The notes below the pieces were generated by a model. The model worked only from the letters and a program-made list of their open reading frames with translations. It was not told where the DNA came from and ran no database searches. A stretch of 64,000 bases of DNA, taken from NCBI GenBank assembly GCA_008360955.1, contig LUCM01004389.1, forward strand, positions 76,214-140,213. The letters run 5' to 3'. Shown piece by piece: positions 2,492 through 63,242 of this stretch. The position numbers and the translations under genes were made by a program. The DNA comes from Fasciolopsis buskii. Its lineage: Eukaryota; Platyhelminthes; Trematoda; Plagiorchiida; Fasciolidae. Position 1 is the first letter of the stretch. Every line of letters starts with the position of its first letter.

Positions 2492-2566
2492 GATACTCTA
2501 AGACGATACTGCGAAAGTTTGTGGTATTCGGGACTCGAGTATATTCGACCGTCGGACGAGGAAATT
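2492..2566 (+). CDS. Exon, phase 0-0, main gene
   Basis: 75 nt between a pyrimidine tract ending TTTTTCAG and the donor GTAAGT. Reads DTLRRYCESLWYSGL and then EYIRPSDEEI. One other frame is also open, but this one joins in phase with the later exons and has protein-like composition. First recognised exon of the main gene. Confidence 0.65.
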
Positions 2567-5500
2567 GTAAGTTTGCATTTATCCGATGTTTGTTCCAATC
2601 TGTTTGACCGTGCTAACAACAAACAGTAAAGTCAAAGCCGAATTGTACGTGTTTTGAGATCATCTGGACGCGTTTTGCAAAACCTGAGATGTAGGTATTC
2701 ATGACAACGGTTGGATAGAGATTGGACTATTATTGCTTTTGTATTTCATCTTTTTCTCGCATTTTTTCACCCAGGCAACATCGATTCCAATCACGAGTGC
2801 GTACTTTTTATTCTTATGTGATGATTTTGCCCTCGCATATTAATTATTATCGTGACTTCATCCGTTTACACTAGGTTTAAACTCAGTATTCTATCTTGCT
2901 TTTAAGTGGTTAGTCCGTTTGTCCTATTCTATTCGAACGGATTGTTGGCACTAAGATACAGTTTAGCTCGATCCGACTCCACTTGGCTGACATTGTGCTG
3001 AAGTGTACAGGCATGATCAGTCGAGTACAAAAATGAACTAAACATACGACACCTTCTTCATTAATCAGGCTAAGAACAAGCATGGGTGAGGTTATACCAT
3101 TGATAACAATATTAACTATACTAATCAATGGTAATAACACTATTAAATCAAAAAAATTGGAGTTTTCTGTTGACCTTCGGGCCACGTTGTGCCGCAAAAG
3201 TTATGGTATTCAAATGACGGTGAAATAACTCATCAAGGCGACTTTGTGCTATTTCAATCGCCGAGTGGGTCGATCTTCAACCGACAGCCAATAAAACGCA
3301 GCCAACACCAAATCTGTTCAAAGCGGAACCGGTAAAATTCCAGGTGACTAAAACTCGGTTGTCAACACATGCATATACTCAATTTGGTTCAATTTTTTCC
3401 AAGGCTGGTTTAACGGGAAGAAAAGGTTTTTAACCAACCTTTCAAATAAACAGGAATATATTAAGTTCATTGCCAGAAAGCAAACCAAGTGCCAACGCCA
3501 AAACATATAAATGGAATTATACCGAAATCTAGTGATAGTAAAATAATCACTTTACTAATTGAATCAGTGGGAGCTAAGTTGCCGTGGCAAGTGATCTGAT
3601 GTTTGGCTAGGTCGAGTTGAATGAGGATCTAATAACATTGAGAAAATTCATTGGGAGATGGTAAAGTTCTTCGACTCGGGAGCCTTAAGTCAACAACGGA
3701 AAGGTATTGACTTTTATTTTTGTTTTGAATCGTTTAATGTACAAGATTACCATATTTTGCTTCATTTTAAGGAGAGATGAAGAATCAGCTTTGGACACGA
3801 ATAAGCAATTTCAAGCAAGATCATGAAATGCCATGGAACTAGACAAAAAGTCTCTTTAGATTGCTAAACCCCTTCGTACGGGGACCTGCGCCAAACCAGG
3901 ACAGTAAAAATCTGAGACAACCAACGCAGAGTTCACACTTTACCGCCTGAAGGGGAATGGTTTGGGCAATAACCCATTGTGGCCGTAAGTAGTTGGTTTT
4001 GTGCTCGACAAATGACAAGCGTCCAAAGTCGTGGCACATGGACGTAAATACACCCGTTCGAATTGAACTTCTGTCGATCATTCTTTCAAATGGTGTGTAT
4101 TTGCTGACGTTGGCCATTTTCTCGAATTTTCTTATAATTATAAAATTGTAAATCAAAAGAGAAAGCAGAATAACAGTAGAAAGGGAAGAATGTCTCACAT
4201 TAGATCATGCATCTAACACTGGATTGAAAATGGTGACAGTTCGTTGCTGGTGGGCCACTCGATTCAAACTGGTTGAGCAAATACAAATCTACTTTTTGGA
4301 GCTTTGGCGGTATGAAACGACGAACGCGAAAAAATGCTTTTGAAAACTATGCGATTGTGATAAAAACACATTTTTGTTTTAAAAGCTCTAATCTAGCCCC
4401 TCAGATGGGAGGAAGATACCACCACCATTTGTATTTGACTAACGTTTCTGAGCTTTTCCTTCCTAGTGTCATTCTTGAAGATGTTTCATCGGTAATTTCT
4501 AACAAGAAATTTCCATGCCAGCGAACCTCTGATTCTTCATTTTTAAAAAAACTTCTCTCGCGTTTTGCGAAAGTGATTTCGAACAGAACTAACATTTCTA
4601 CAAATGGTTATCACACCCGCATCACCTAAGCGAAGTTCAAGTAGAAAAGTATATTTAAGTCTCTCTCATGAAACGACTACTCACAACGCCAAGTGCAGTC
4701 ATTTGGCAACTTCGTACATAGAAGTGTTGATGACAGTAAGATACGGATCAAAAGGCAAACATTCACTCCAACTGAGTGGGATGCGAGTATGTAACTACGT
4801 CGTGTTGTATAATTCTTTTGTGTAATTTTATCTACAAAATCCTTGACAGTCATGTCGATGCCCTGGACCGATAATTTGATCTTCCGTATCAAGCCTTCGC
4901 TGTAAGTTACATTGAAGGAATCTAAAGCGAACGATGAGTGTTATTCTAACTTGAACCAAACTGTTTTGCGTGAACTGGTACCCTTAGGGGTTGTGTGGCC
5001 TCGTTAAGTGGAACGATGCTGCTAATCTGCGAACGTTGCTTAGTGTCTTACTGTCCGCCATAAAACAGAATCCGCACCTCGGTGGTTGAACTATGCACCC
5101 CATCTTTTCATCAGCCAGTCCCCAGACAAAGGCGTTCCGTTGGATCCTTCTTTTATCATTCAGTCTAAGGACTCCGCTAATGCATCTTTGTAGATCTAAT
5201 TAGGCCAGTGTAGCTAAGTGATGTAAAACAGATCTGTGATGTTCAATTAGCTTAACGGATCACCCTGTCGTTGTCAGTTCGGTGACTGAACGGGCGGTTG
5301 ATCTACCCTATACGCATGACTACACACAAACACATGCGCACCACACACATGGCTTAAGTGCACGAAAGTAGCATTTGATTGTCCGGCCGTTTGTTATGTG
5401 GAAACCTAGTTTGTTGTATCGATTGATTCCTAACGATCACAATCACCTCATGTGGTTCAAGTATAAACGATCTGCTCAGTGAAAGGTTGTCCTTACTCCC

Positions 5501-7036
5501 AGTTTTGTGAGTTAGCAACAATCACCTAATACCATTCCCAAATATGTACTCAAGAAAATCCAATTTTCAGGTCAGTACCTTCTAAGAATGATTCATATAT
5601 ACCGAAACTTATGTAGCAAAACATTATATTCACACTTGTTTGGCTCTGAACGTGACAAAATCAACAAACACCTAGCATGGGTTTGCATCCCCACTATACA
5701 GTGAGCGCGGATACCGAAAGCACAGGGCCACTTTGCTTCGGTGTGATAACTCACACAGAAAGGAAGCCCAGTTGTACCCAAAATATCTGGACTGACTGAC
5801 GAACTCTTTTGAGCAGAGCCCAAAATGGCGCGGAGCTAATACTGAATCGTTTGTAAGTTCGAAGGCAGGTATGGAACCATTCGGGCGCCCTAGCTTGCGG
5901 ACCCACTGGAAGCGACCGAGGGCAACCTTCGATGCGATGACCACAGAAGAGACAATAAACCTGTTAGACGAGAACGGTTGATCAGTGAGCCCTATGCTAT
6001 TTGGACTCACATAAACCGTTTGTTTATGACAAAAAGATGAAACGGTAGTATCGAACTGTCTCAGGCCATTTTAATCGTTCCCGCTTGATTAAGTGGAATA
6101 GGACTGAATTGCGCGAGAGTTATCGACCGTGGTAAGCAGCAAGAAATGACCTTGTCCTTTTTCGTTACGTATGGAGTATATGCACTAGAAATTCGGTTAT
6201 CATCTTTTTTGACCCCATCTGTAAATCCGATTTTCGTTGAATTACGGACTTTCTAGAGAGACAAAAAGTGAGGTTTTTTCGTGAGAGATGAAACATTTTT
6301 TGGTATCAATAAAGTTTCTCTGCACACCGGTAATCGATGAATCCGACATTGTTCTTCAACTTATTTTGTAATCATTATCACGCGGTGTGAAGTCTATTCA
6401 TCTCGTGTGCCACGACGCGCTAACAGTTCCACGTCAGTACCTAAAGTATGGATAGCCTATTAAGGTAAAGCGTTAGAACATGAAGTACTGAAATTGTGTT
6501 ATGCTTTCTTTATGTGAACCATAACTTTGAGTCGTTTGTGCACTCCCGTTAGTTTAATTAAATTAAAAGAAAACTAATTTACTCAAGGTTACGTAATTGC
6601 CGAATTCTGGTGAGAATCTACACAGAGCTGCCTTTGAAAAGACTAGTACTTTCCTATAATGCCTAGCTTTGTAGAATTTGGCAGGTATTTCCTTCACCAT
6701 CGCAGCTAATTTCCACCCGTTCTTGGTATCTCCTAATTTGAACCATTGCCAAGAATTACCCTTAATTTAATCTTGTGAAGTAGAGAACTCGGGAGGAAGT
6801 AAGAGATGGGAACACCTTTTCCTTGTCAAATCGATCTTGAAAAACATTTTAAGGATCATCGTTCGTTATGAATCAATCAATAAACCAATCGATTGACGCA
6901 CTCATATGCGTCAATGGCTTGCTTTTTTACGCGAATAACCCGTACCCCAAATCCTTTGATATTTGGAATACTTCAGCGAATTTCCTGTTCATCAGCACAA
7001 AGAAGCGTTGTAAATAGCAAGAATATTTCATTACAG
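2567..7036. other. Intron with no clear element; one possible 20-nt exon and minus-strand ORFs
   Basis: Mostly featureless. A candidate 20-nt micro-exon at 6706-6725 (CGCAG before, GTATCT after, reads LISTRSW) would supply exactly the phase needed to join the 2492 and 7037 exons, but it is short enough to be chance. Minus-strand open stretches at 3839-4198 and 5672-6010 have no recognised domain. The 5672-6010 one (112 codons) has even, protein-like composition and may be an old unclassified repeat. Confidence 0.3.
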
Positions 7037-7144
7037 GATTAGAAAAGCAGATCTTAGTTCGTGGTTTTTGACAACATCAAAACTATTCCGGCTCTCAGTT
7101 TTTGATGGAATCGGTCTCCTGCCACCGGAATTGCGCTTCATGAA
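7037..7144 (+). CDS. Exon, main gene
   Basis: 108 nt after ATTTCATTACAG, ending at donor GTAGGT. Reads IRKADLSSWFLTTSKLFRL then SVFDGIGLLPPELRFM. It enters with one base of a split codon and leaves with two (AA). The ordered hydrophobic pattern and the FDGIGLLPPELRFM stretch look like a conserved globular domain, though I cannot name it. Confidence 0.75.
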
Positions 7145-7469
7145 GTAGGTTCATGCATTATCATACAAACGGTAGACTAGTTCAAAACAGCGGAAACAGG
7201 CCAAGGTGAAAATTGGTCTCACCGAAGTTATTTTGCTTAAGCAACTACTCCGTGTGCAATTGCAAAACCAGGAAACCTGGTTCGCTTCCCAGAACATTGT
7301 CATACTGTCATGAAAACAGCCGAAGGGATTGATGTAATGCACTCGGATGGCTTTGACGTCGAGACCAAGTTTTACGCGAACTGAAATTCTTCACGAGTAA
7401 AATTTCTTCGGTTAAGGTTCAAAGATAATTATCAAACCATTGTTACTAATATAATTCCTTAATTCCCAG

Positions 7470-7558
7470 AGGTCTTCCTTCGATAAAGATGCATCTTCTG
7501 TTGGACACTGAAGAAAGGGAATTTAGCCTAGGGAAAATATTAACGTCTTCCCAAACAA
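7470..7558 (+). CDS. Exon, main gene
   Basis: 89 nt after TTCCTTAATTCCCAG. Its first base A completes the AA carried from the 7037 exon (Lys). Reads GLPSIKMHLLLDTEEREF then SLGKILTSSQT, ending at a weak donor GTTTGT with one base left over. The phase match with the preceding exon supports it; the donor is the uncertain part. Confidence 0.55.
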
Positions 7559-7664
7559 GTTTGTGAAATTTCATATTTCGTTTGGTACTCACATTTCACA
7601 GGCAATTGAGGTCGTTCACGTTCAACTGGTCATAATGCAGTCATAATGCAGATCCAATGAATGT

Positions 7665-8470: not shown

Positions 8471-8570
8471 GTGCAACTTCTAAAGCATATATATATGTTG
8501 GAGGTGAGAAGGCGCACACTGAGTTATAACGTTTACTGTGGCGTTTCAATCAAAACAAGGACTCGTGATA

Positions 8571-8610: not shown

Positions 8611-8614
<4 letters not shown>

Positions 8615-12456: not shown

Positions 12457-12555
12457 TTTGCCAAATGTGGAATTCTATTCACGAAACGACAGATACCATC
12501 GGATATCTTGTTTGCGTTCTTCTATCAAATGGATAACTTATTTTCAATGAGCAAG
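12457..12555 (+). CDS. Exon, phase 0-0, main gene
   Basis: 99 nt after TTTCTTTTTCAG, donor GTAAGC. Reads FAKCGILFTKRQIPSDI then LFAFFYQMDNLFSMSK. Strong splice signals at both ends, and a hydrophobic-helix pattern consistent with a folded domain. Confidence 0.85.
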
Positions 12556-15771: not shown

Positions 15772-15870
15772 GTAATTCATACAATACGCAGTATTATGGA
15801 CTGGTTGGACGCATCGGAGAACAGAGCTACTCAAGAAACTTCGATTTACGACATGCATTTACAAATACCG
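15772..15870 (+). CDS. Exon, phase 0-0, main gene
   Basis: 99 nt, donor GTGAGT. Reads VIHTIRSIMDWLDASE then NRATQETSIYDMHLQIP. Acceptor is TTTGTGTGTAG. Same 0-0 phase and length as the 12457 exon; continues in phase into 17686. Confidence 0.8.
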
Positions 15871-20234: not shown

Positions 20235-20425
20235 TTCTTTTATCTTTTACTTTCTTTACTAATGAAGCAGCAATATACGTCGATTTTCAGCAAGGGGGCT
20301 ACGACCAGCAGAGGGCTGCTAAGTGGGGAAGTTGACCGGCGGTGGGGGGATTTGAATCCGCGACCTTCACGTCCAAATGCCACGACCTTATCCGTTTGAC
20401 CACCACCGACTGAGTCCATCATAAC
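20235..20425 (-). mobile_element. tRNA-derived SINE, copy C (best preserved)
   Basis: On the minus strand: GTGGTCAAACGGATAAGGTC (A box), GGTCGCGGATTCAAATCC (B box), the CAACTTCCCCACTTAGCAGC body and an A/G-rich tail GTAAAGAAAGTAAAAGATAA. It preserves the family layout best of the three copies and could serve as the reference. The tRNA part resembles a Leu- or Ser-like head; this is inferred from box sequence only. Confidence 0.85.
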
Positions 20426-23199: not shown

Positions 23200-23202
<3 letters not shown>

Positions 23203-23235: not shown

Positions 23236-23509
23236 AATTTATTTAAAGAAAGCAAGAGAGAAGAAAACCCGATTCATCTTTATGAGTCTAATAAGCTTCA
23301 TCAGGTAAACTAACATGAAATCTCCATTCCACTGGCACAAATTTCTTCACCAAATCACCTTAAGGTTACACACATGGTGGAAGCTTCGTATTTCCATCAG
23401 TTGTTTGAAGAGGTTTCCTACGACCAGTCTTTTGTTCCCCCTACTCGTCAAACATACGTGCATGAATATGTGATGGATACTCTTCGTTTCTTGCACTTTG
23501 CCAGAACAG

Positions 23510-23662
23510 AACTTCATCGAAGCACTTTCGGATCATTTGAAAGCCCTCAGACTGTGCGAAGAACTTCTTCGACATTTGGGTTCTGTTTACCACCGAGTTC
23601 GCCCGGAGAGTGGATTCCAACGGTTCTCTGCCCGGGCCATTGTGGATTACAGCACTGAGCAG
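23510..23662 (+). CDS. Exon, phase 0-0, main gene, with GC donor
   Basis: 153 nt. Reads NFIEALSDHLKALRLCEELL, RHLGSVYHRVRPESGF and QRFSARAIVDYSTEQ. The acceptor is CTTTGCCAGAACAG; an alternative AG five bases earlier gives a frame that does not join. The donor is GCAAGT, so the next intron is of the rare GC-AG class. A strong amphipathic helix makes up the first half. The ARAIVDY string recalls the start of SH3 domains, but the rest does not follow. Confidence 0.85.
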
Positions 23663-25724
23663 GCAAGTGTCATAATGCTTCTTAGTACGGGATTGTACAA
23701 AACAAGAGGTCTTGACCTGGGTTGTCTACCATGTTAACCGTTCGACATTTGTCGCCAAACTGTTCTTCGGTTAGTCAATTTTAAATGATGTGACTAATCC
23801 AACAGAATATTAGTCACCAAAATTTTCCGCCTAAATTTCTATTACAATACCTTACTTAAACGTGTGAAAAGATGGATGACCGTGACTTAATCAAACAAGA
23901 TGCGTACTATCCAGCCTATGCCAAACACGTGGACAAACAAACTGACACGATTGATTCTCCAATAGCCGTCATCGGCGACATCCAAAGGGATTTGATTTTC
24001 AAGGGAGGCCGTCACTTTTCGTTGAACACGTATTAGTAACTGTACCAGTTGCGAGAGAAATCGTGGGAAAATAAACCAAAGTCCCGTGGCTCAACTCAGC
24101 ATTGGGCTAACTCAAATCAGATTATTTCGAAGAGTACATAAAACAAATTCAAGAAAATTGGTGCGCACTTGCCGGCCTTTCACAGTCATCTTCTTTAAAA
24201 TTGAAACGAAATCGCTTGTCGAAACAGGCACAGATAAGTGTTGTTCAGCAATATGTAAAAAAAGTATTCCGACAGACAAACAGTTCCCGCCTAGACGGAA
24301 AAATGTACATTCTATGATCAGGTTAACTTACCATCTATTTGGTATGACATTAGAGTTCCAATTAATAGAATAGACATCGTGGGAAATCATGCGTGGCGTG
24401 GATTCTTGCGTTGGAATCGTTTCAGGATTAGTAAACTTTGAAGGTGAATAAATTTAACATTTACAAATATTGACTGAAAGACAGTCATTATAAGATCTTG
24501 TAAAACTTCGCAATTTAGGGGACCGTGCTGAGCTAAGCTCACTGCAATTAGACTGCAGGTGCCTTACATATGTATTTTGGATCCATTGTTTACGTTTTCA
24601 CTAGTGGAACTCAAACTCACGTTATGAACATGTGCAAGCTTTCCAAATTCTTAATTCCGCATGTGTGATGAAAACGCAAATACTGGTAGAACTTACCGAT
24701 AACCAAAGAGCACATACTTTGTTCGGCTGACCCTAGGAATGGGCTGTGAATCGACAAGATCGACAGTGAAACGTGTTTTACAAATGGATCAATAGGGAAA
24801 ATCGTGTTTAGACATTCAGTCAGTTTACTTGTAGTCGTTCCAATTCGAGGACATTTTTTCTTAATATTATTAATGATTATCACTGATATTTGACAAATCC
24901 ACATGATACGGTTCAATTTCGGTAAATGATTCGGAAGGGGCAACGATCGGCTGTATCAAAGACGATCGAGCGCAATGCGTTCCGTAAGCTAGCAGGAAAT
25001 CAAGATCAGTTGAGTCAATGTATTTTCAATCTTACCTACTTTTGACTGGAATTGTAAAATGACTAATCATAACTCAAGCATGTAATTATGATAACCAACG
25101 AACGCAATGTTCTTATTGTGTAGTTTAACAACGGTTGAACGACGATGGTTAGGCGGTTGACATTTTGACGATTCGAATTGAGGGTCGAGAGTTTAAATCT
25201 TTATGTCTTCAGTGAACGTCCCTATTTGACAGTTGTAGCATGCACTGGGACACTAATCACTAAAGGACTTGTCTGATCGGCGTAAAAACACGCAGCCAAG
25301 TTGACCCAAAACCCGGTTATTTTACCAGCCAAGTTCAGCACTTATTCGCGACACGCCACATGGTCTTCCGTTGGTCGCAATCTTCGTCTTGGAAACGATG
25401 CAGTTTTGCTGGATTTTTGACTAAAGAAGTAGAAAGCTAACGTAAAACAAAATCGACCGCTATCGGAGAGCTCGTGTCTACCTTAGATCCAACACCGATT
25501 TGATCAATCGCGGAAAAAATTGCAAACAGCAATACAGCCATTCTTAAGTTGCTTTATTCAATTCGCCTTTTTCTCAAAATGTCATTTTTGTCAATTTGAA
25601 CTGGTTCTTTTTTAAATTCTTTGCAAAATCGGGTACTATTGTCTGTGATAAGTTCAGTCTAATACTCTCAATGATTCCTTTCTTACCATCTTTTAATGCA
25701 AAATACATCTTGTGCCTCTCCTAG
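23663..25724. other. GC-AG intron, holds one SINE-like remnant
   Basis: 25145-25290 has a tRNA-like GATGGTTAGGCGGTTGACAT head and a GAGAGTTTAAATC B-box-like segment; it is a weak SINE candidate. The remainder has nothing I can name. Confidence 0.35.
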
Positions 25725-25793
25725 AATACAACGAAAATTCGGGCGAATCAGTGGTATCGTGTACAAAACAATTCAAATCCTCATATATGGAAG
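25725..25793 (+). CDS. Exon, phase 0-0, main gene
   Basis: 69 nt after TGTGCCTCTCCTAG, donor GTGAGT. Reads NTTKIRANQWYRVQ then NNSNPHIWK. Good borders and phase match to both neighbours. Confidence 0.75.
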
Positions 25794-28776
25794 GTGAGTA
25801 GTCAAGTGTTCATAGTTTCTTGTCATCAGAAATGTACTTAATGATAGTCTGTGGGAAAACTACAAGTAAATGCCTGGGCGTATTCTCTGGTCTATATCAA
25901 ATTCGAGGATAGTCACGGCGATTACTTCTCCACTACCTGAACGAGGAGGAATCGAGATTGATTTTCAACCATGAATATTGAGACTCTCAATAAAAGTCGA
26001 TGGTATAAATAGTGTCTATGCCAAAACACGAAAATTGTTAAGTACTGTGTTTTTGTTCTCATTTTGTCCGTTTTTCTCTACGTTACCTGTGCGCATCCAG
26101 TTTGAAATTGGAAGTTCGAGGCTAAGTCACTGAACCTATTTGGGGATAAGATGAAAATACGGCTCACAGTTAAGATCACAAGTGATAACGAATCGAGGCA
26201 TTTGAGGAATTCAGCTTCATTTTCGTTGGTGGAATATATTACCCCAAAAACAAGTAAGTTCTGCATCAAATAATTCACCATGTCATGATATCAGCGTTCA
26301 ACCAACCAGTAAGAAAGCATGGAAGCATTGTACGACTATTTCATCCTTGTTAGAAATCATCAGCAAGTCCGCACTGAGATGCGAACCCGGGGCGGACGAT
26401 TTTGAGTTGAACGCTTTAGCAATTACGCTGCTAGGCAGCTGTAGTGCTTCCATGGTTTCTTATTGGTGAGTTGAACGTTGATAACACAGAATGAATTATT
26501 TCATCAAAATATATGAGCTCCTACTAAGAATACCTGCCAGATTGGATTCTCACGTAACAAGAGCCCAATTTACTGCTCACTCTAAGGGCTGATGCTCTTA
26601 CTAAGGATGACATGTTCGCTGTTAAAAGTAAAATTCAAGTCGAGACAAGAACACTGCTCATTCGGCGTGGATGACTGTCCAGTCAGAGTTATCCTTATGA
26701 TATAATAATTGTGTTGATAAGTTAATAGTACATTAAACTACCGTTAACCCAGTGCTTTCTGTGCCGTTGTTATGCACTTTGGCGATGACAGTAGGCTAGG
26801 TTACTAGTGACCGGTGTAATCTTTGCCGAATTCTACTGGCTGGATTCTGCAAAAATGGAGAATTCAGAAAGCAACCGTTTCAATTCAATGTTTTTTAACT
26901 TACGTTCCTCTGGAAAAATCCATGAAAGAAGCAAAACATAGGGGACAGCTCCTGAAGTGACTCGCTCTGCAAGCATATGTGCGGGAAATCAACGAGATGG
27001 CATATTTGTGATCTAACTTCCAAAGATAAAAAGACAAACCAACAGGGAGAAAAGAGGAGGCTGACAGAGACTGAGTTCAAGAAGCGAACGTGTCTCGTTC
27101 ACAATTCAAGACCGTGGGTGGACCAACAAACCGGACTCTATGAGTACAGAAAGTCAAACGCAAATAAGACTGCGCGCCGATTATGTCATCTCGATGGTTT
27201 TTGAAACGATCGCATCATCATCAACGTCGGCTAGAATGTCTATCAGTGCTAAACATTTTTGTGCACACATAAATTCGACAAAAGATGCTTTTCCTGTCCA
27301 AAGTGTAAAGTTTAGTTCAATCAGAGGTAGATTCCGTTTCTCCTGAAATTAACAGGAAACAATTAGCGTTGCTTTCAGATTCAGGCACGAACAATCCATT
27401 ATGGTTGGACAAGTTTGCTAACTGTGACAGTTTTATGTAGTGAGTCCCACTAATAGATATTCGGAATAATTATGAATACAGATGCCGTTAGGCTACACGG
27501 ATTGTGTTGATCGGTGATCTGGGAGAAGAAGCCATATGCGGAAGTCCATGTTTCGTGTTTAAACAGAAAACCGATACATTCGTGTACTCCGTGGGCCCTC
27601 GGTTCTGTCAGTCTGACATGGTTGGTTTTGGAAGAACCAGTGACAACAGACAATTCGAAATCCAAGGTATATTTACTAGTGATTTACGAACTGGTAACAA
27701 AGATCACATGGGTATTCAAAAGTGATCGTAACTTTCACTATCCGTGATTTATTTGAAGCATAAAATATTGTTGAATTAGGTGGCGCATTTGACATGAGGT
27801 TGTGGCAAGTTGAATAAGTGCTTTTGACGGGATACACCTGGTGGTCTTTGGTAATTTCGCATTGAAGCTCATGCTGTACCGAACAAGTCATAAAATGTTC
27901 CCGGTGTCAAAGTCGCATGATTGTGAAATCTGACTGGGCAATCAGTAACTCTCCCAGAAGAAATGTTCGAACACTAACTGTCCTGGCCTCGCACTTCAAT
28001 TGATAGAACACACGCGGCATTGTAACACCGATGGTGATCGGGTACGAGTTTGAACACTATAGTCCTCAAAGATATTTTCCGATTTGTCTAAACGTAAAAG
28101 TGATCAAGTCAGCTAAGACGAATTAAATACATCATGCTCAAAAAGTCCATTCATGCATTGATGCAAATGTCTTCTTTCATTTTGTCATATTCTCCAACTG
28201 AAATGTACAACTGGATCATTTAGCATGGATGTAGATTGATGTTCTCGGTCGCGTCTCTCAACTATACGTGAAACGGCAATTTTTAAACCCGGCATATGCG
28301 AAATATTCCAGTGAACGTTCACTAGCTGCACTGGGCGAATTCAGTTGTGCTATCTTCACGTATGGACATGTGATTTTCCGTTTCATTTTCAGAAAAAAAC
28401 TAAGTGAATTCAAAGTCATTACCTTGCTATTAAGTAGTATTAGTAATTAATTAAGCCGATCGGTGTTGCGTATCAGCTAATAGAATAACTAGTTTTCTAG
28501 TCACTGTCTAGAAAATGTCAGGTGTGAGTTAGATATCTTCCAAGCCTATGCCAATTGATAATGGACATTACAAATGAAGTAAGAATAGAGGTAAAGTAGA
28601 CGTACTCCCTGTTGTTGGGATCAGTGTTGCCTTAGTTACGACAATGTAAATCACAGTATCAGCAGTAAACCAAAATGTTAGCTACAATGTGTTCTCATAG
28701 ATGGATAGGGGCTGCATTAGGGAGATTCACTTGTGTTGGCAATAATACTCGACTTTTTCCTTCATTCTTTGTCTAG
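25794..28776. other. Intron with an inverted-arm SINE; otherwise no recognised content
   Basis: Apart from the element at 26264-26506, overlapping open stretches near 26977-27346 and 27504-27747 show no domain and no supported splice sites. Confidence 0.4.
26264..26506 (-). mobile_element. SINE-like tRNA core flanked by about 60-bp inverted arms
   Basis: Left arm 26264-26327 and right arm 26445-26506 are imperfect reverse complements; the inner 38 bases (26290-26327 against 26445-26482) differ at only five positions. The minus strand of the centre has a tRNA-like CCTAGCAGCGTAATTGCTAA (A box) and CCGGGTTCGCATCTC (B box). The same core and one arm recur at 40925-41130. The element is 243 bp long. 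Confidence 0.75.
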
Positions 28777-28856
28777 TTGAGAGATCCTGTCCAGAAGGTT
28801 CCCTCACTATTTTTGGAAGCTTCTACCGAGTGCGGTGAAGAACTAATGCTTCGACG
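28777..28856 (+). CDS. Exon, main gene
   Basis: 80 nt after TTCATTCTTTGTCTAG, donor GTAAGC. Reads LRDPVQKVPSLFLEAST then ECGEELMLR, leaving two bases (CG) that are completed by the first G of the 31256 exon (Arg). The non-trivial phase match is good evidence for both exons. Confidence 0.85.
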
Positions 28857-31255: not shown

Positions 31256-31355
31256 GTTACGAGAGAGATTTGATGAATTTCTTATCATGTGTCACGGTCG
31301 ATCTCGGCGTCAACTGTTCTCCCGTATAACGAGACATTTGCAAAAAGATGGCAAA
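31256..31355 (+). CDS. Exon, main gene
   Basis: 100 nt after AATAATTTCTAG, donor GTGAGT. Reads LRERFDEFLIMCHGRSRRQL then FSRITRHLQKDGK after the split Arg codon; leaves in phase 0. Among the most protein-like exons, with basic and amphipathic character. Confidence 0.9.
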
Positions 31356-36235: not shown

Positions 36236-36614
36236 TATGCAACGCTTCCCAATATGAGGCTGTCCGAACCCCATGGACCGTCATCTCCTATGGAAGGTTT
36301 ATATTTTGCCCGTTCTCCAAATCCATCCAAGAGATGGCGATCATTCTTCAATCCTAAAATTGTCGGTCGACAACCTTCTTACTACTCTTTCACCACCCCG
36401 GAAGAGTTCTACTGTCCAGAAACTGTCAGACGAATGCTAACAGAGTTGCGTCGCTGGGTGCATGACTTACCGCCACCTACAGCTTTAATGAATGGAACTG
36501 ACGATTCCCGTTTGTCACTGACTCGAAAGAAGTCACTGGATACAGAAGATCGGTGGCAGGACGATGACACTGTTGATCATTTACAACGATGGTGGAGTAT
36601 GGCTTATCCTTTAG
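36236..36614 (+). CDS. Largest exon of main gene
   Basis: 379 nt after TTTGTTATGGTTTTAG, donor GTGAGT. Opens YATLPNMRLSEPHGPSSP, a Ser/Pro-rich linker. Then SKRWRSFFNPKIVGRQPSYY, FTTPEEFYCPETVRRML, TELRRWVHDLPPP, an acidic/basic linker (SLDTEDRWQDDD) and HLQRWWSMAYPL. It enters in phase 0 and leaves one base (G) that is completed by TT of the 43915 exon (Val). The unbroken 126-codon frame and clean borders make it the best-supported coding exon in the window. The Trp/Tyr-rich block looks like a conserved domain, family unknown. Confidence 0.95.
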
Positions 36615-41130: not shown

Positions 41131-43914
41131 GTGAAAAACTTATCTATCAACAGAAAAGATAATAGGAGTCTATGAAAGCCAAAGCAATTGAATGGTAAGG
41201 TAAATATGAAGAGAACATAATGTTAGATCGAAAGTGAACAAAGGTGGGTCTTACAAACAATGAATACAACATGCGCGTTGAAATCTCATACGGGGATTAA
41301 TTCAAGATCAGAGTTGAAAGATAGAATAGCGATCCACCGGCCGTGATAGGTGCTGACGTCTGCATGACTTGGAATGTGATAGGAAAGATGACAGTAAAAA
41401 CTTGCGAAATTCTGGGTGCTTCAAAGGTACAGCACGGTCATGTGGATGGTTAAAACTTTGGGAGATTTCGGTTCGCTTGGACTGACAAGTATATAACAAA
41501 AGGATTCGTGTCTTGACGGAAGTGAAACAACATTTGTTCCAAGACAGAAAACAACAAGTTCACGAGACAAATGGAGAGGGTAAAGATACCCTAGAAGAAG
41601 GAACAGACGGAATTGCGAATGTGCTCAACCGTGTGAGCACAGTCACCAGGTGCACTGAGGACACATTTGGGGGAATTATTTAGTTGACATAAGTTATTGA
41701 CCACAACAAACTTATCAGTTTTGCGCCGCCAAGCTGAAATGGCAGATGTGTGAATTGTTTACTCATGATTTTGAACATTAAATCCCTCGAGAACGGTCAA
41801 ATAACAGTCCGGGGTCGGCTACCACCAATTGCTCATGTTTTGAAGGTAAGAATTATAAGATGGATAAGTTGCCATTGTAAAGTGAACTATAGACAGGGTA
41901 AGAGAACAAACTCCCGAGCAAACATATCAAGCTGCGGAGTGAACTTGGAAACTGATTATGAACAAAGGCACTGACATTGTCTTTGGATGAAGGGACAAAA
42001 ATGATCGATATGCTTAGGTAAGAACGGGTGATATATTATGTGGAACAAACCCGAATTCCCATCGAGATTGGAAAAACTGAAGCGAAACATTGGATAATCT
42101 GGCTAGCTGAATTTGTGTTGCGGTTAACTCCGTGGCTGTTAGCTAGGATGGTGAGTTTTTCGTTGCAATGGGAATAGACAAGAGACGAGAAAGTGCAAAG
42201 GCGAGTTCGATTTTAAGTTTTTATGATTCGTTGAGAAATAGTAAACGGAAAACGGTAAATCAGGACGTAATATAGTGAAACACACACAGTGAACCAATTG
42301 ATCAGGCATGATGGTAATTAGGCCGGCAGGAATAGTGTCTATCACGTGGTTTTTCCAACTCCGCTTTGTTTTTACATTCTTAAGTATTGTTTTTCTTCGA
42401 CTAGTTAAGACAGAACAAAACGCTTTTTCCGTTTCTATTTATTGACTTGTCTGGATATGACTCGCGGTTACTTGACTCATGTTTCGTAAACGTGATATCT
42501 ATCAAATGAGTAACATATCTGCGTTCTGACCAATAGAAAACAATCATCCTCAAGGATTATTGGCTTGATTATTAGTGTTTGATATATAAAAAGTTGTGCA
42601 AATCGCGACTGTTGTTCGTGTTCGTTTTTTTTGGGTGACGCTGAATTGATCGGAACGCGTATTTAGATTAGTGAAAAAGAAATACATCCCGAGTGTTACA
42701 AATTCACAGTTGTCAGAAAAGACTGTGTAAAGAAGAAATACGTGTGTTGTTCTAGAATCCCCAAAGTAATGATATTTTTTTCTATGGACAGTGGAGACTT
42801 GAATGTGAGACGACAAATGCTTTGAAATAAGTCCAGGTTAACAGTTACCCCCCACTAAGCTAAGTATCTCGTAGGCTTAAATTGCATTTAAACCTCGTTA
42901 GGGACGAAAAATTTGGAATCAGTCAGATTTGATCACTCCGGTGAAGTGTCAGATCATGAGATCGAAAAGTTTTACAGTGAAATGTAAATCTTACCAGAGC
43001 TACTTTATTCTCCTGAAAGGGTTGACTGCAATTCAAATATATGATTTATCAGAAACATTCTGTTGATAAGGCTCAGCATTTTAAGAGGACTGACAGTTTG
43101 TCATGCTCTGCGTGATCAGTGGTAGTAAACTTGCACGTGAAGGCTACGAATCCTACGACCCGTCGTCACTCGCGGTCAGAAGTAATTCGCGTTCGGCCGT
43201 CCAGTTACTTAGCCTGATTCGGGGGTAACGTGGTTCTCTACTTGACTGAATCTTAGGATAATATTTTCAGTTCTGAGGTAATGCCAAAGAAAAATGTATC
43301 CTTCACAGCATGCCTCCTCGAAAAGAATAAGACGTAATCAGTTTAATGGTATGCTAAATAGTGAGGAGAATGATGGATAGCAATGTTTTCTTTAGTTTGT
43401 GTATGAACAATGGTTACTACACATATTGTCGGAATTAAGGTTGAACGGTAAGAAATGCAAATGACAAGTGATATTTATCTGTTATGTTACCTCTGTCGTC
43501 TCCACTTACCCTGATCACCGTCATTTCGTACGCTTACGACTCCCGCGGTGCACATAACGCTATAAGAATCGCAACCATGTTTCATGAATTGCGATGAATG
43601 TCATGAAGTACATATGCTAGGATGAATGGAATACAATTCTATCGTATGTGCATGGATATAATTATGTGCTTTGATTACACTGAACAGTTATGTGTTGTGT
43701 ATTATTTTACAACCAACGCTATAAGGTAATAAGGGAATTGTTTTGTTTTGCCTGAATAAGTATCCGTAAAAGACAATGAGAGCTTGGTGAAACTTGTAGC
43801 TTATTTCTTCTTCAAGAGGATTAATAGGTAATTTTTGTAATAATAGGTAACACGAAATTCGATTAATGATTTTTGGTGTTGTTAACGTTATCCATTGCTT
43901 TTTGTCCCTATCAG
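41131..43914. other. Intron, no recognised content
   Basis: Purine-rich in parts (41500-42100). Open stretches are short and lack domains. Confidence 0.4.
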
Positions 43915-43967
43915 TTCCAGATCAAACACAACTAGATCGAATCGTGAGTGAGGCATGTTTCCTAAAG
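43915..43967 (+). CDS. Exon, main gene
   Basis: 53 nt after TTTTTGTCCCTATCAG, donor GTGAGT. Starts with TT completing the G of the 36236 exon, then PDQTQLDRIVSEACFLK, leaving in phase 0. Strong splice sites and phase match despite its small size. Confidence 0.85.
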
Positions 43968-50200: not shown

Positions 50201-53200
50201 AACCTCTGTGATGACAGGACGAAGTGCAACTTGTGTGAGGTCAAATTGACCTTGAATTTCTCCTGATTGGAGACACTGAGCCAGCGTGCATATCGATCAG
50301 CTTAGTTTCGGTTTCTACGCCACAAATGTTTTTCTTTGCATTCGTCGAAGTCATATCAGCATCCGCAATCATGCATTTTCATCAAAAAATTGGACATAAT
50401 TAGAGATAATTAGACAAAATTTACGAATTACAATTTGGAGCTCAATGCTTTCCTATTTAATATGAGTACCAAAGTCGGGGTTAGAAAGACACGCGAGACC
50501 TATTCACCAACTTATACGCTTCATAGATTTTCAGATATGCTCAGATTTCTTGCATACGTCTCAGGAATCGTGGGTACACATCGCCTTTGGTACCTAGTAC
50601 AACTTTTGGTCTGTTATTCTTTGAGTAAATCCTGTATCGGCACTTTGGAGCGTACGCTATGGTACTAGGTAATGATAAATCACCGGGAAACACGAAGTAT
50701 GTTGTAATGAAAAATTCTGCTCCAATTACATCTCCAATCACTCCGAAAGTCGTACATTTTCCCACCTCTATTTCGAACTGGGTTGTTGGGAGCAAATCAC
50801 GCCAGTTGGATTTTCACGGGTTGCTATTAATTAACATCCTGTATCGATGAATAATATCTACCTGGTCCGTTACGAAGAACTTTCATCAAAGTTAATTAGT
50901 ACGTATTTTCAACTCAGTACCGCGGAATCTTGTGGTTTTGCTGAGTATCGTTTGGATGCTGCAACTGTTCCACAAATGTTCATAAAAACGCATATCTAGT
51001 TACCGTCAAAATGCTGTGCTGCCTGTTTTCGGCTAGGGTCCGTGTATATGTTCCATCATAATAAGTTGAGACCAAGAATTTCCTTTTGCTCTGAATACAT
51101 CTTTCCCCGTTTGTTGCACGAATACATGACAATCATGATTTGCTAACAGTCGAAATTGTTGCAATGGAGGCCCTGTCCGTTTTCATTGTCATACTATTCG
51201 CGAAGTGGGGAGTCATGAATGGCAGTCGTAATCTTTTTTTTCGGGAATTTCATCCCTCTCCTGTCCATCCGCTTAAGTGACGGTTTTTGTTAGTGGTCAT
51301 TAATGCTTCTTCTTTCGGTTATTTGATTACGGAATTCTTTTTACAAGTACCAGGTGGTAGATAGTAGAAAACCAGAAAAAAATCATACTAAACTATACTG
51401 TTTGGCCGTCTGTCATTTCATGAAATGACAGATATTTATTTTAGACTAGTTTCTGTAACACAATGTTTGGTCATAAATGTGGCTATTCGGATGACAGTCA
51501 ATAATATGTTTGGTCGGAATGCGCTGTTTTCAGTGCATTTGAAATCCACTGCCCCTTAGAATCAAAAGGCATGAGGAGGTAACAGAAGTGTCAAGTAAAA
51601 TAAAACTTTAGTTCTTGGTTAATGATGTGCTAGTGTGCGACAGTAAAATGCCAATAACGTAAGACAGGTGAATTGCTGTTCCCACATTTAGTAGTACTGG
51701 CATTGATAAAACGAGGCGTTGGTAAAACTATTTCCTGTATCAGTTTGCAAAATGACACCTATTCTTACGGAAAACAGTCCCAGTCCAAATGCCATCAGTG
51801 CAAACAAACGGCAAATTCACCTCGGAGGCTAACTGCTACCCAATTTTATTGCAACAAATAAACCCAGACAGTGCATTCAATGGAAGAAATTTCACTTGGA
51901 CAGGACAAGGGTTGAAATTCGGTCTTGCCATACGCTTCCTGTTGGTAAAGTGGGACTTTGTTGCTATTGACTCGGTAACATTTTGTGATTTAGTCTCCTT
52001 ATATATTGTGAATATCACCATTAAGAACGAACTATTCTTGGTAGGTTTAATTTGCTAATGTTCGGGCTACCGCAGATGAACAGTCTCGAGACAAGTTGAC
52101 GGCGATATCCAAAGTTTGCCACTAAAGTCGAATCTCTTTTCAGACATGTGTGAGAAGATGTTGACTTTTTGACATTTGGTACGCAGTTCACGAACATCAT
52201 TAGTTGTATCCGAATCGAAATTTCGTGTAACAGAATAGTGCCACGATCAAATTACGTACTGTAGTAGGGGATTTTGAATGAAAATTCGTGTAAGACCCAC
52301 CTTGTTGATCCTGTTTCAATAAGCGAAAGATGGTGTGAATGCTTAAACATCAGACAAAAACTGAAGATGGAAAGATTGAATCGCGGCATTTGGTTACAAG
52401 AACGTGATGAATACCTGCTTTTGTACAGGAAGGTTCGATGAAAGTTACGACAGCAGTACCTAGGTGAGGCAAAGACTAAAATAACAAATGTAAAATAGCG
52501 TCGCCAGTAAACAGGAGGGAAGCGGTTCCTTAAAGATGGGCCGATGCAGGAAGTGGGTACGTCAATCAGCTTGTCGCCTTTTCTTCGGACCGATCAAGAA
52601 GACGGACAGTTCCATAGGAAGCCGCAACTCAAAAATGTTTGCAGTAATCTGAAGTGGGGTAAATTTGAACTATGTACAAAGCAAGGCGTGTGAAAGTGGA
52701 GATACATCTCGTGTGCTCATCACGAGAAGCAAATTGGGTGTTTAGGACGGTAGAATATCGACGAGCCAATTTATAAGCCAAGAGGAGAGTCATTATTTAC
52801 TCCAGGCAAAACAAAGGAATATGGAGGTACTAAATGATTTTGTAATGATATTAAACGTAGGATAGTTCTGAAAACAAGAAACATAGAGAGAATAATGGCA
52901 TCCTATGCGAAAATGTGTTAAAGACCGTTGTTTACAGATACTCCGAGGGCACAACAATCACAGACGTTGTTAATCTTTCCATATGCCGAATCTGGAAAGC
53001 GATGAATCCCATCAACTGGGGTAACCTTGATTTGGTTGCTGAAGTAAAAATGCTATTCACGAGATGGCACTTGAGAAGAACCGGTATTTAGCCATTTCAG
53101 CAGAAATATCGAGCTAATTGATTTGATTTCTCACCGTGATTATAGAAGGTAATCGATCCGGACTGTGAGATGAAATCTAACAAATCACCCGTTGAAGGAT

Positions 53201-56200
53201 AGTGTAATAGTCGCTGTTGAATGTCGTTCGGCTGACCTTTGTGTTTGCAAATCACAATGACGGTTTTGGATATTTTCGTAAAAACAGTTTATAGGGAAGT
53301 TGAAGAATCGTTGTTCGGGTCTGAATGGTTACTGCTTTTGGGAATAGGAGGAATCCCAGGGTTTTCCTTTGAAATTAGAAAAGCGGAAATTTTGATAAAA
53401 GGACAAGAGATAACGCAACAGAAGGGTCAGTTCACGGTTATAAATTTTCAGGACAACGGATTTTGTACCGTCTGGCCCGCGTAGTTTGCAAATGAATAGC
53501 AACTGCATCTTTTGGTTGATTTTTTAAAATTTTGATATTAAATAGAGACTGGAGACAGTTGACAGCAAAAACGGGTGTAGTTGGATTTGATAGCGAAATT
53601 TAAGGCAAACTGGAAACAAAAGTCCTCAGCCACATCGTGTTATTTCCAAACAAAATCACCAGGTGTGACGGAAATTAGAGAATTGTAAATAGTGCGAGAG
53701 ATTGCCTTGTCAAGAGATCAAACTGCTCTAGCTACTGCTGGCCTAAAGGATTAAGCTTTCTGTATAGCAGCCATCGAAGCGTTCTTAGCTGTCTGTATGC
53801 TTTATGACTACCTGTTTTTGTTCGCCTTAGTCGATTTTGGGAGATGGGTACGAGCGATTGGTGCCATTGTCGAAATGCTGAGCGTTTTAGCCGAACAGTA
53901 TAATCATTTGTGTGAGTGAACAGCTGAACACTTTGTACAACAAACTCGATAAATATAGAAACATTTATGGATACCTCCGGTGTGAAACTGCAATTGTTCA
54001 ACAGATAGAATGATAGGTATTCACGAAAATTGTCGCAACTAACTAAACCGTAGCTCTAAGGTGTTTGTCTCGAGGTTGGGTAGTGGATCGGGACGAGCAA
54101 CATCCATGGTCCAAGAAAGGATGCAGTGGTCAGATGAAAAAATGGAAGGACATGGAGAATGCCTGAAAACAGGAAATTAACCGAGTTGTTTATCAGACTG
54201 GTGTCATCATCCTGATTAGGAACGTGCACAACAATGGAATGATCGAATTCACGTCCTAGAACCAAAGTGTCACATGAGTGAATTCACTGCTCTGATTTGT
54301 AAATGTCAAAATCCTTGTCACCAGTGACGTCTGTTCTATCCACGTGCACGATTTTTGAAGATGAGGAACCCAAGATGAATAACCGAGAAAACGAATTTAG
54401 AGATCAGATAGAAGATGGGGTTGCAGAAAAACTAACTGAGATTCAGGTGTAGAGTAGTCAAGATTTTATATTCCGGATGTGCTGACTGTCTGGCGGACAA
54501 CAGAATAGACGGCAAATTTGAGTAGAAGAAGAAAAATGAAGGGTATGATTGGGAAACTAAAAGTGCCTCTGGTTTGATGAAAAGGGACTTGGACCCTGGT
54601 CAGGAATCGAGGAAGAGGATAAACAATTTGGAGAAAATGGCGAATGTAGTGGTTATTGTTTCTAATTTGTGTCACGACCAGTCGTATTTGCTGTTCATTG
54701 CTAATAATCCATGTGGATCTATTTACCTTGCCCAGAATTTCAATGATATACTCCGCTCCAGAGTCAATCTGAAGTTAGAACGTAGTCTGTCCGAGAAGCA
54801 GTTTCAACGTTCACAAACAACGCAAAGGTGAAGTCGCAAAAATGTTTTTATGCCATTTTGATCTGTTCCTTTTGATCATCAGTGAATTTTTATCTATGAT
54901 ATGCTTCGAAAGCGACATCTTTAGGTACAGTGACATCCTTTAAAAACGATATGTTTTATACCTGTGGAGAATGGCTATTTGTCTGCATCTTGGCAGTAGG
55001 AACGGAGATTTAACGCCCAACCCTACACCTCACAAAAAACATAAAGGTAAGCAGATGCACACACACATACATATAGACAAACACGAATGCACCTTATTTA
55101 ACACCCAATTGCTATAGGTTGCCATTCCAGCTTCATTCGTTTGCAAGCCAGTCGTGAGCATGTTTGTCTGCGATAACCGAAGCTTTGACGAGTCAACAGC
55201 TGCTTCGATCACGCTGTTACTAGCCAATAAAAGTCTACATAAAATCGGTTTCGCTCTTTTCTCCCAATCGATATGAATATACGATGATCGTTAAAGTCCT
55301 GATAGAATAGCTTGGCAAAAGTTATTTTGATGCCATGGGGTTTTATGGCCGGAAGTTCAACTCCACGAAGGATATATGTTAGGGTCGAGGTAAGTAAAGA
55401 CCTACTCACGTATTATTACCAGTTTATGGGCCAATTACTTTTAATTTATCAGTAGTTAAGTATGAGTTGCATCCATGAAATTCATGCATAACGTGGGTTT
55501 GGCACTCGCATGCACTCTGTGGGACCACCCATGCTAGCAGTAAACCGAGGTTTCCGTACCGTAGGAACAGCCTTCCAGATTCATAATATCGAATCTAGGT
55601 ATTGACCAAATGATTCAGTTTAACAGTTTGAACTTTGGTACATGTGACACTCAAGCCTTCGTTCACGTAAATCGTTTGACGCACAGCAGCGTTGTTTATC
55701 CTATTTCATCTCGATTGACACACGATCCAAACATTCGGCGCGCTTCGTGTCAGATTCTGTTCCAGATCAGAATATGGATTGAGGACTAAAACATAAACGT
55801 AATAGAATGTCGAGTCACAAACTAGCACCAAACAAAAGAAGTGATTCCTAAAAACTTAGATCTAAAAATCAAGTCAGTTTTTGTGCAGCTTTGTTGCCGG
55901 ACTGCCCACTTCCCAGTTAGTCTGGAGATTTTGGTGAACAGTGAAAGACCTAAAACTAATTATCTGCCGATTTTTTCCCAGCTTTCCCTCGCTTGAAAAG
56001 CACGACTGCAGATTTCTAACTGGGATGACAGCGGTAAACATTCCGCATTTTGTTTCTCGATCGAGGGACCGATTGATCAACTGCATAATTGTTTTACGGC
56101 CAGTTTGATTGATTCGTTGACAGTTTACAAATACCACTGGGCACATTGAGAAAACATAAGTTGGCGAACAAGCTCGTTTTCAGTGATTCGTACTCATGCC

Positions 56201-56809: not shown

Positions 56810-56903
56810 TTATTACGATCACCAACCTACGCATACGCAAGTATTGGTGGATGAACTATTAGCACGGCTAAGTGAACCGTTTTATCATCCTCGAGCTGGA
56901 GTG
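56810..56903 (+). CDS. Exon, main gene, post-membrane tail
   Basis: 94 nt after ATGTTAACTTTCAG, donor GTAAGT. Only one frame is open: YYDHQPTHTQVLVDELL then ARLSEPFYHPRAGV. Leaves in phase 0. The intron before it is only 46 nt, in contrast to the kilobase introns elsewhere. Confidence 0.85.
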
Positions 56904-57639: not shown

Positions 57640-57960
57640 TTTAAGCCTATAACTCTGGACCCTAAAACCTTGTCTTTAGAAGAGGCCTTGAGACAGAATA
57701 GGTGGAGATGACTAGGAAATGTTTGCGCATGTTCATAGAAAAACTGTCATACTGTAGGCCGTTCTCTGAAGCAGAAAGTGATTAAAAGATGAGTCGAGGT
57801 GAACAGATATGGAAAAAGTGAAGAATAATCTAACCAGTTAACTGGCTCGTCTAGATACAATTAATCTACCAGGTTGGAGTCTAAGAGATTCCTCGAATGC
57901 GCTTAGTGAAGACAATATGTGACATGGCCCAGTGGCGCTGTCCTTAATCTACCTGTACTC
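57640..57960 (+). mobile_element. RTE-like LINE 3' tail
   Basis: Reads in shifting frames ALRQNRWRW, LTSxLARLDTINLPGWS, LRDSSNA and a DMAQWRC-like end, matching the last ~100 codons of the same LINE family as 37950-40425. Stops interrupt it; it is a 5'-truncated insertion. Confidence 0.85.
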
Positions 57961-60567: not shown

Positions 60568-60690
60568 TACAGCTATCGATGGGTTCATCGCACCCTGAGT
60601 CGTTCAACTTCTCCGGCTCTTCCTTCTTCTATACCCGGCAGTCCACTAGTGTTCAACTTTCTAACCAAATCCAGGGACACGAGTATTTAG
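60568..60690 (+). CDS. Probable C-terminal exon (or penultimate group), main gene
   Basis: After CGTCCAATTTCAG. In the required phase 0 it reads YSYRWVHRTLSRSTSPAL, PSSIPGSPLVFNFLTKSR and DTSI, then stops at TAG 60688-60690. A weak donor (GTATTT at 60683) just before the stop would leave one base that fits the two-base start of the 62230 exon, giving a longer tail. A second frame is open further (to 60761) but is out of phase. Confidence 0.6.
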   Translation, partial: YSYRWVHRTLSRSTSPALPSSIPGSPLVFNFLTKSRDTSI

Positions 60691-62229
60691 ACGTTCGGAT
60701 TTCGAATCGGTTTGATCGAGACCGCAATGCAGTGTATACCAGACATGTTCGTGTATCTTAGATCCGATGCTATTCTTATTTAAACTTATAAATATTGCTT
60801 TTATTTCCATTAGCTGATGGCCTAAATGAATAAGGGACAGATTGTGAAATGTTCTACCATCGATTCCCCTGATAATCAGGACAGATTCATTTCATGCAAT
60901 CATTTTCTGTCCCGAAACAAAAATGGAATGGGATTTTTCGTAACCTTTCACATTGCTTCGATTCTATTCAAATAAGCCTACTTGTCTTTGTTTTACTAGT
61001 GTGAACATTTTTGTTCCATTTATCAGATTGCTACTTCCAGATTCCGAAGGCCTTCGCAACCTTTATCATTTAAATATCAATAATAACATTGAGAATAATG
61101 AGTAATAGAAATTTTGATAACAATAATACTAAAATCATTTAGCATTTTTAACAATCACAGTTTTTACTAAATCCATGAATACCAGAATTGACCAGAATGG
61201 AGAATGACAGCTGAGAATCATATGCGCGAAATTGACTGATTAACGATCATGGGTGCCATTAGGCTAAAAATGCAATGCACATGCCCAAACCCACTTGATT
61301 TGGTATTGTGTATTCAACAGTTGATAGTCAACAACCACAGACCGTGAGTTAAATTCGACTGTAAGCAATTGTTTGGTGCAGTGGTTAATCGTTGCCTCCT
61401 AGCGTCTGCTCTGTCATTCAATAACCCCGGGGCATTTTGAGCATCCATGGTCTACAGTGAAAGAAAATTTCTTGGGAACCGCGTACCACAAGATCAAATA
61501 TCATGTGTCCCACTCTGTTTATTTCAGCGCAAATCGGGCAACTGACCTATATCGAGAATATCGTGGAACAGAGAGTACCCGTCGTGAGGGATTTCACTGA
61601 AGAAATATGCGCGAATTCGGGCTCATGTTTGCTATGTGATATGCAGTTCAAGGTCATCAAAAGGTGATCACTGGTTGCCAAACAATATTAGGTGCTTAAT
61701 ATACGACCGATAAATTCCAAGATGAGGAATGAGTGGTTCTAAGCTCATTTGGGGCGATTGTCAAAACTGGCGGTAGCCAAGTAATTAAAGTGTTGTTATT
61801 TCAAAATATTACTTTGGATTCGAAATCTTTCGTTACTGGCCACTTTTCTGATTTGGCAGTCTGGAACTAATCATACCACCTTCTTGAAGACCATACGTAG
61901 TGCCGATTCGATGATACGAAGATGAGCTCACGACTGACATCATTACTTAACTCTCAGCAATATAATAAAACAAAAAAATGTGTTATTAAAAACACGGAAC
62001 GCGGGTATGGGAAGCCAGATGAGATGGCTGAGCTTCATGGCGATCATAGAAAGCAAAATCAGGAGAGTTCATTACTTAGACATAGCCGAGCTTGCCTCCA
62101 AATTGAAAAATACTGAATAGTGCCGGTGAGAAGTAGACATTGGATAATGTGAACTTCTGTCTATATTTTAGGCGCCAAGAAACGATATTCAGTGATCTGT
62201 TAATGAGCCTGCATCTTTTCTTCATCTAG
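60691..62229. other. Intron or 3' flank; SINE-like remnant
   Basis: 61370-61440 has GTGCAGTGGTTAATCGTTGC and CATTCAATAACCCC, resembling tRNA A and B boxes. 61070-61140 is AAT-rich. Nothing else. Confidence 0.35.
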
Positions 62230-62254
62230 GCGTTCAAACCGCTGAACTCCAAAG
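62230..62254 (+). CDS. Tentative 25-nt exon, main gene
   Basis: After TTTTCTTCATCTAG, donor GTACAC. Reads VQTAELQ between two split codons. It joins the alternative end of the 60568 exon and the 63053 exon in phase. A longer version using GTAATC at 62303 is open in another frame but then does not join. Confidence 0.35.
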
Positions 62255-63052
62255 GTACACAAGATGTGCCACTCAGCTTCAGTAGTTACTTTCCAAATGA
62301 AGGTAATCCAAATCAATTTATGTATGCTGGACTTCATAGAGATACTTGATGGAGCGGAATTTCGTTGATTAACTATGATAGATTTATTCGATGTTCACAT
62401 CGAGAGAAAGGTAAGCAGCAGTGAACATTCCACGATCTCTGCCCACGTGCGCTGTAAGACATTCATGGTTGATTGTTCACCGGAGTGTACATTAGACAAA
62501 GTAGACATCTGCGACATACCATGTTTCCAGTTTTTTCTTCTCATAGCCGCATACTTGAATGCAGACAATGGTAGCCTGCACACCTAACGATCGCACGGTT
62601 GGTGGTTGCATGAAGATAGTAAGTGAAAATGAACCGGGATCGATATCGTGTGTGGAGACGAAATTATCGGTCACCGCCCATGACAGCTATGGTGACCGAA
62701 CATAACCCTGTTGAGCGGAATTCGGGCATCAACGTCAGTATGTCGACTAGCGAGGTTTCGTCCGATGGGGCTCTGCAGGGAAACTGTCACGTTTTTTTCC
62801 TATCAGCTGATGTTTAAATGATCACCTTGTCTGGAATCAGTCAAACACAATATTGTTTAGAGTGACATCTTAAGCGCTGTTAATTTTGTTAGTTGAACAT
62901 TACTTTTTGGTCGATACCATCTAATGACTTGCAGCCGTGTTCACACCTAGATCTCCGAACTCGAGTATTTGGACTGGCCATGTAAAGCGCAGGTTTTCGA
63001 TTCTGCATGGCAAATTCTTTTCATTTGAATTTGTTTAAATACATTTTTTCAG

Positions 63053-63242
63053 GTCGAAAAATAATTATCTATCATTTCGAAGTGCACCAGATTATTATTA
63101 CGATATACCATGTGGTTGCTACTGCTGTATCACAAAAAGGGAGGAAGAAGTAATTAAACGTATTGGATACAACGGCCGGCTGGATTTGATTCTTGAATGC
63201 ATTAATCAGCGTATGCATTGTACATCATTATTCCGGGTTTAA
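63053..63242 (+). CDS. Possible terminal exon with stop codon
   Basis: 190 nt after ACATTTTTTCAG, open for 62 codons to TAA at 63240. Reads SKNNYLSFRSAPDYYYDIP, CGCYCCITKREEEVIKRIGY and NGRLDLILECINQRMHC. Protein-like, with a Cys cluster CGCYCC. Either the extended C-terminus of the main gene or the last exon of another transcript. No AATAAA was seen closely downstream. Confidence 0.5.

Follow-up and report, generated by a model that had tools for sequence, protein, structure and literature searches.

The stretch of DNA examined here, called the window, comprises 64,000 nucleotides of the fasciolid trematode Fasciolopsis buskii, contig LUCM01004389.1 (C2638:76214-140213) and holds most of a large plus-strand gene. 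The contig has 202,340 bases, in a genome of 703 Mb and 6974 contigs. Protein searches with exon pieces of the window found FBUS_04656, a deposited F. buskii protein of 429 amino acids. Placement by tblastn on the contig used this protein for exons 1-11 and the proteins of other flukes for exons 12 and 13. The whole gene covers contig positions 69237-136903, about 68 kb (window -6976 to 60690), with small exons and very large introns. Its 13 exons, 12 of them inside the window, join into 1503 nucleotides from ATG to TAG encoding 500 residues, in agreement with the deposited protein over the first 428 of its 429 residues. Exon 2 was placed by tblastn with the deposited protein and orthologues, and exons 3-11 are backed by both tblastn and the joined model. 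Coordinates below are those of the window, except for exon 1.

Contig 69237-69323, plus strand: exon 1, 6,977 bases before window base 1 and outside the window, residues 1-29, with the ATG
2492-2566, plus strand: exon 2, residues 30-54, splice sites ttttcag and gtaagt
12457-12555, plus strand: exon 3, residues 55-87
15772-15870, plus strand: exon 4, residues 88-120
23510-23662, plus strand: exon 5, residues 121-171, GC donor (gcaagt)
25725-25793, plus strand: exon 6, residues 172-194, inside the predicted SH3 fold
28777-28856, plus strand: exon 7, residues 195-221, end of the predicted SH3 (VPSLFLEAS)
31256-31355, plus strand: exon 8, residues 221-254, predicted long helix after the SH3
36236-36614, plus strand: exon 9, residues 255-381, Trp/Tyr-rich, also matched in Echinostoma caproni
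43915-43967, plus strand: exon 10, residues 381-398
54736-54827, plus strand: exon 11, residues 399-429
56810-56903, plus strand: proposed exon 12, residues 429-460, absent from the deposited F. buskii protein; its phases, 2 and 0, are compatible
60568-60690, plus strand: proposed exon 13, residues 461-500 and the TAG stop, not in the deposited F. buskii model; acceptor, stop and phase fit
23618-28830, plus strand: SH3-like domain, residues 157-212, parts of exons 5 and 7 and the whole of exon 6

All 12 introns end in AG and begin with GT, except for the GC of the intron after exon 5 (window 23663), which is backed by the deposited protein and the orthologues. The deposited protein matches no other contig, all 11 of its matches at E<=10 falling on this one, and a single gene copy was found. 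An initial annotation made from the sequence alone had proposed one large, unnamed, coherent multi-exon gene on this strand, and the homology-supported model bears this out. Of the annotated positions, 2492 and 36236 coincide exactly with exon starts and 56903 with an exon end, but 12017 and 63242 do not hold, as exon 3 lies at 12457-12555 and the last exon, 60568-60690, ends in a stop. Eighteen exons had been counted where the model has 13. Five matching non-zero-phase junctions had also been judged unlikely by chance; in the model only the junctions that follow exons 7, 9 and 11, three in all, are of this kind, and chance chains are phase-compatible as well.

This last point comes from an exon scan in which the best splice-bounded open frames were chained by phase, with the minus strand, the reversed sequence and 12 third-order Markov simulations as controls. 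The best phase-compatible chain had 28 exons for the plus strand, against 27 for the minus strand and 32 for the reversed sequence. Every one of the 12 simulations gave a chain, with 12-22 exons and 5-15 non-zero-phase ends. Because the controls chain too, phase compatibility carries no weight here. The plus-strand score, 70.5, exceeds those of the simulations (29.4-45.7), but the minus strand reaches 92.2 and the reversed sequence 74.5, and therefore the plus strand is not singled out. Among the 28 plus-strand chain exons, five match gene exons at both edges, and four of the five keep the correct frame; another corresponds to part of the 36236 exon. A self-trained exon finder with exon chaining thus yields candidates but not proof, and chance phase-compatible chains arise easily in a long window.

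Proteins from six further fluke species back the gene; the initial annotation had named a homologue in other flatworms as support. With the 36236 exon as query, a 105-residue protein of E. caproni was found at 67% identity over 73% of the query. A multi-exon search returned five relatives besides F. buskii itself: Fasciola hepatica D915_007328 (429 residues), a Schistosoma intercalatum protein (506 residues, in a cluster of 47 sequences), Clonorchis sinensis CSKR_110753 (499), Opisthorchis viverrini T265_01025 (462) and a Calicophoron daubneyi protein (489). The Trp/Tyr-rich domain that had been noticed in the 36236 exon corresponds to a conserved Trp/Tyr/Arg-rich block. This is a real gene, conserved in flukes and of unusual domain architecture. 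A literature search found no paper naming the locus tags of the family.

The deposited F. buskii protein stops one codon past exon 11, its frame running into the intron. The deposited F. hepatica protein has the same ending, from which we infer the same read-through in that model. A conserved block, L(V/L).EL..R....FYHPRSG.(F/Y)S(F/Y)R, continues the S. intercalatum, C. sinensis and C. daubneyi proteins, and in the window it is split over 56810-56903 and 60568-60690, where order, phase and splice context all fit. We propose these as exons 12 and 13. For exon 12, tblastn gave E values of 4e-5 (S. intercalatum), 1e-4 (C. sinensis) and 0.012 (C. daubneyi). Exon 13 is the least well supported of all exons, with 0.005 (C. 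daubneyi), 0.047 (C. sinensis) and 42 (S. intercalatum). The corrected 3' end of the deposited gene model is a proposal of this analysis.

The initial annotation had read the product as a membrane protein of 18 exons with a C-terminal hairpin of two hydrophobic segments, to which we now give almost no credence. Hydrophobic open frames do occur near the 3' end, for example at 53755-53916 and 51095-51277, but they are not part of the homology-supported model. The C-termini of the orthologues are hydrophilic. In a search for membrane-spanning segments, the best 19-residue Kyte-Doolittle mean was 1.07 in the 500-residue model, at residue 71, and at most 1.29 in the deposited relatives checked. We reject the membrane hairpin for this model. 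A profile hit to an unrelated soluble family had been named as what would refute that reading; the plakin match described below, more by fold than by profile, is of this kind as regards the membrane part. The human membrane protein ERMARD was compared by tblastn with the window and six flanking pieces and set aside, with a best E of only 1.0.

No family had been recognised at first, and the likeness that emerged, to the plakin domain, is one of fold more than of profile. Plakins are giant proteins linking the cytoskeleton with cell junctions, and this domain is their load-carrying central part. In structure models, residues 19-254 resemble the SR4-SR5/SH3 region of plectin and desmoplakin, with spectrin-like helices and an SH3 among them. 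A less ordered Trp/Arg-rich linker and further helices are predicted to follow, and the charged helical modules seen at the outset hold up. The central region of the plectin plakin domain (PDB 3pe0) has the same order of helices, SH3 and long helix, and two models, each led by a different species, superpose on it over 203 and 201 residues at 3.8 A, although identity is only 11-12%. The plakin domain of desmoplakin (PDB 3r6n) is the top Foldseek match of both models, at 9-10% identity and with rmsd of 7.9 and 4.5, so past residue 254 that match is loose. Spectrin-like repeats with an inserted SH3, a mark of the plakin family, are found in the predicted fold. Judged from sequence only, the SH3 motifs are also non-canonical as in plakins. 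The third-place Tyr of ALYDY is lost in all six proteins, and PSNY reads PSLF in all six, where desmoplakin and plectin have PSVG and PSVC.

Gene structure, orthology, the absence of membrane segments and the predicted fold are computational results. We consider it likely that the F. buskii gene belongs to a fluke-conserved family whose soluble 500-residue product has, at residues 19-254, a plakin-type module of spectrin-like helices with an inserted SH3-like domain, and that it would serve as an adaptor. A 'hypothetical protein' of human and livestock flukes would thereby become a testable plakin-domain adaptor.

Profile searches of the SH3 are less clear. Pfam SH3_10 scored above the cut-off in one of the six proteins and was reported at E<=10 in five; canonical SH3s match SH3_10 too, but match SH3_1 far better. 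Neither SH3_1 nor the Spectrin model matched any of the six, and desmoplakin shares this SH3_10-only pattern among the Pfam SH3 models. Several scores are less favourable to the plakin reading. The best PDB sequence match is the SH3 of ITK (E 0.0045). In a profile comparison ITK, with 31.2, was level with the nearer fluke plakin-type SH3 (32.2; the other 28.6), and lower scores went to desmoplakin (19.9), plectin (19.1), two further fluke SH3s (18.7 and 12.5) and fluke alpha-spectrin (15.1). A shorter profile gave 31.2 for ITK, 30.2 for STAM, 25.2 for a two-sequence plakin alignment and 16.1 for alpha-spectrin. An HMM search put ITK first (21.2 bits), followed by the fluke exon L032 (12.1), another fluke SH3 (11.4), plectin (8.8), alpha-spectrin (7.4), the fluke exon L034 (5.7), an NCK-like fluke SH3 (4.3) and, last, desmoplakin (1.9). 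Compared with plakin, spectrin, ITK, STAM and other SH3s, the SH3 sequence is ambiguous between plakin and ITK. Given these scores, it is the fold, with the SH3 embedded in spectrin-like helices, that supports the assignment to plakins more than the SH3 sequence does.

The ITK scores would suit an SH3 protein unrelated to plakins, for example of the Tec or STAM type, whose flanking helical bundles came to resemble spectrin repeats by convergence. We find this unlikely, as in both structure models a single alignment to plectin spans some 200 residues that flank the SH3 on either side, the ALYDY and PSNY motifs are altered in the plakin manner and SH3_1 gives no match. A divergent relative of alpha-spectrin is very unlikely. 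Alpha-spectrin likewise has an SH3 inserted among spectrin repeats, as stated in part of one paper (PMC5601466), but its SH3 is canonical and the F. buskii genome apparently has a separate alpha-spectrin gene, with an exon encoding such an SH3 on another contig (C6766, L036). Its profile score is the 15.1 given above, where the two plakin-type SH3s of the fluke reach 32.2 and 28.6, and the canonical SH3 and Pfam-recognised spectrin repeats expected of an alpha-spectrin are absent from all six proteins. We know of no solved repeat-SH3-repeat piece of alpha-spectrin for comparison.

Other searches added little. Pfam, PDB and NCBIfam gave nothing useful with single exons or exon concatenations. 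When exons out of order and padded to 1046 letters served as the query of a protein search, 708 candidates came back, none at E<=1. Two kinds of Pfam match over helices were taken as chance: PF17784 (sulfotransferase) in five of the six proteins, below cut-off (best 17.1 of 22.8 bits), and a single PF13374 (TPR_10), also below cut-off.

A genome search with SH3_10 gave 14 matches, four of them above cut-off. The window gene is not among the 14 because its SH3 is split across three exons. Six matches were translated (L032-L037) and labelled by reading of the letters; three look like other SH3 proteins, and the rest are as follows.

C6354: candidate plakin SH3 exon L032, 31.8 bits
C314:74583-75044, minus strand: candidate plakin SH3 exon L034, 26.4 bits
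C6766: apparent alpha-spectrin exon L036, 21.6 bits

L032 shares with the short protein a stretch of the type NNS..PH.WK....VPS. By eye, L032 and L034 both carry a VVP[VI]HLRL segment before the SH3, which the short protein lacks. L034 has a long extra stretch in mid-SH3. Plectin repeats are reported for spectraplakins of Platyhelminthes in part of one study (PMC9145010). With candidate plakin-type SH3 exons elsewhere in the genome, this suggests that the short protein probably exists beside ordinary plakins in F. buskii. That the gene is a pseudogene or a fragment of a longer plakin is hardly credible. The product is short for a plakin and the deposited model is truncated, but start and end regions recur across several species, protein length is 506 residues in S. 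intercalatum, 499 in C. sinensis and 489 in C. daubneyi, and the two plakin-type SH3 exons found sit on other contigs.

Plectin itself also carries an actin-binding domain, a rod and plakin repeats, as described in part of PMC5979291. Pfam reported no actin-binding CH, plakin repeat, GAS2 or spectrin rod module at E<=10 in any of the six proteins, and so no actin-, microtubule- or intermediate-filament-binding module, with HMMER filters dropping most matches above about 0.1 and exons 12 and 13 covered only by the proteins of S. intercalatum, C. sinensis and C. daubneyi and, for exon 13, that of O. viverrini as well. Because the plakin module is kept while the filament-binding parts have no Pfam match, we infer by analogy that the protein is soluble and acts as an adaptor or regulator where force is borne. 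The same source describes the plakin domain of plakins as a platform on which junction proteins assemble, BPAG2 and beta-4 integrin among them (PMC5979291), and simulations treated in part of PMC5601466 suggest that the plakin SH3 is held against SR4 and freed by force. The fluke module would by analogy be a rigid adaptor docking junction or membrane partners, with its SH3 packed onto the repeat before it and perhaps exposed by load. As Pfam shows no filament-binding modules, the protein would not cross-link filaments itself; it would instead recruit or regulate other proteins, perhaps working alongside the larger plakins of the fluke or in opposition to them.

Shortened relatives have a precedent in the truncated spectraplakins of early-branching animals, although those of sponge and Placozoa are said, in the available part of PMC9145010, to lack CH and plakin domains. 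The fluke protein is the reverse, with little beyond the plakin domain. A tentative and rather doubtful proposal is that flukes evolved this stand-alone plakin domain as a soluble control on their larger plakins or on tegument and junction adhesion, docking on junction partners, with a load-released SH3, and competing with or bridging to full-length spectraplakin. No free-standing plakin domain of flukes, nor any paper on a fluke plakin, was found in the literature searched, where subscription papers are mostly outside coverage. Such a small soluble module would offer a handle on what the plakin domain does without filament-binding parts.

Around the gene, an open frame on the minus strand (window 165-653) is like a LINE endonuclease remnant (PF14529, E 0.025, below cut-off). 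Short open frames at window 20291-20341 and contig 163396-163442 and 190741-190791 have similar ends (GLLSGEVDR, QLPSGETDR and GLPNGEIDR) and are probably a repeat family. Downstream of the window, minus-strand exon candidates at contig 158675-159138 and 144645-144766 encode an EGF domain (Pfam EGF, 5.1e-7) as well as a hydrophobic segment; they probably belong to another gene, for a membrane or secreted protein, that converges on the window gene. Upstream, contig 23506-23828 and 42590-43282 on the plus strand are strong exon candidates of another gene; Pfam gave nothing above cut-off for them, and they may resemble the SUN-domain protein SUCO.

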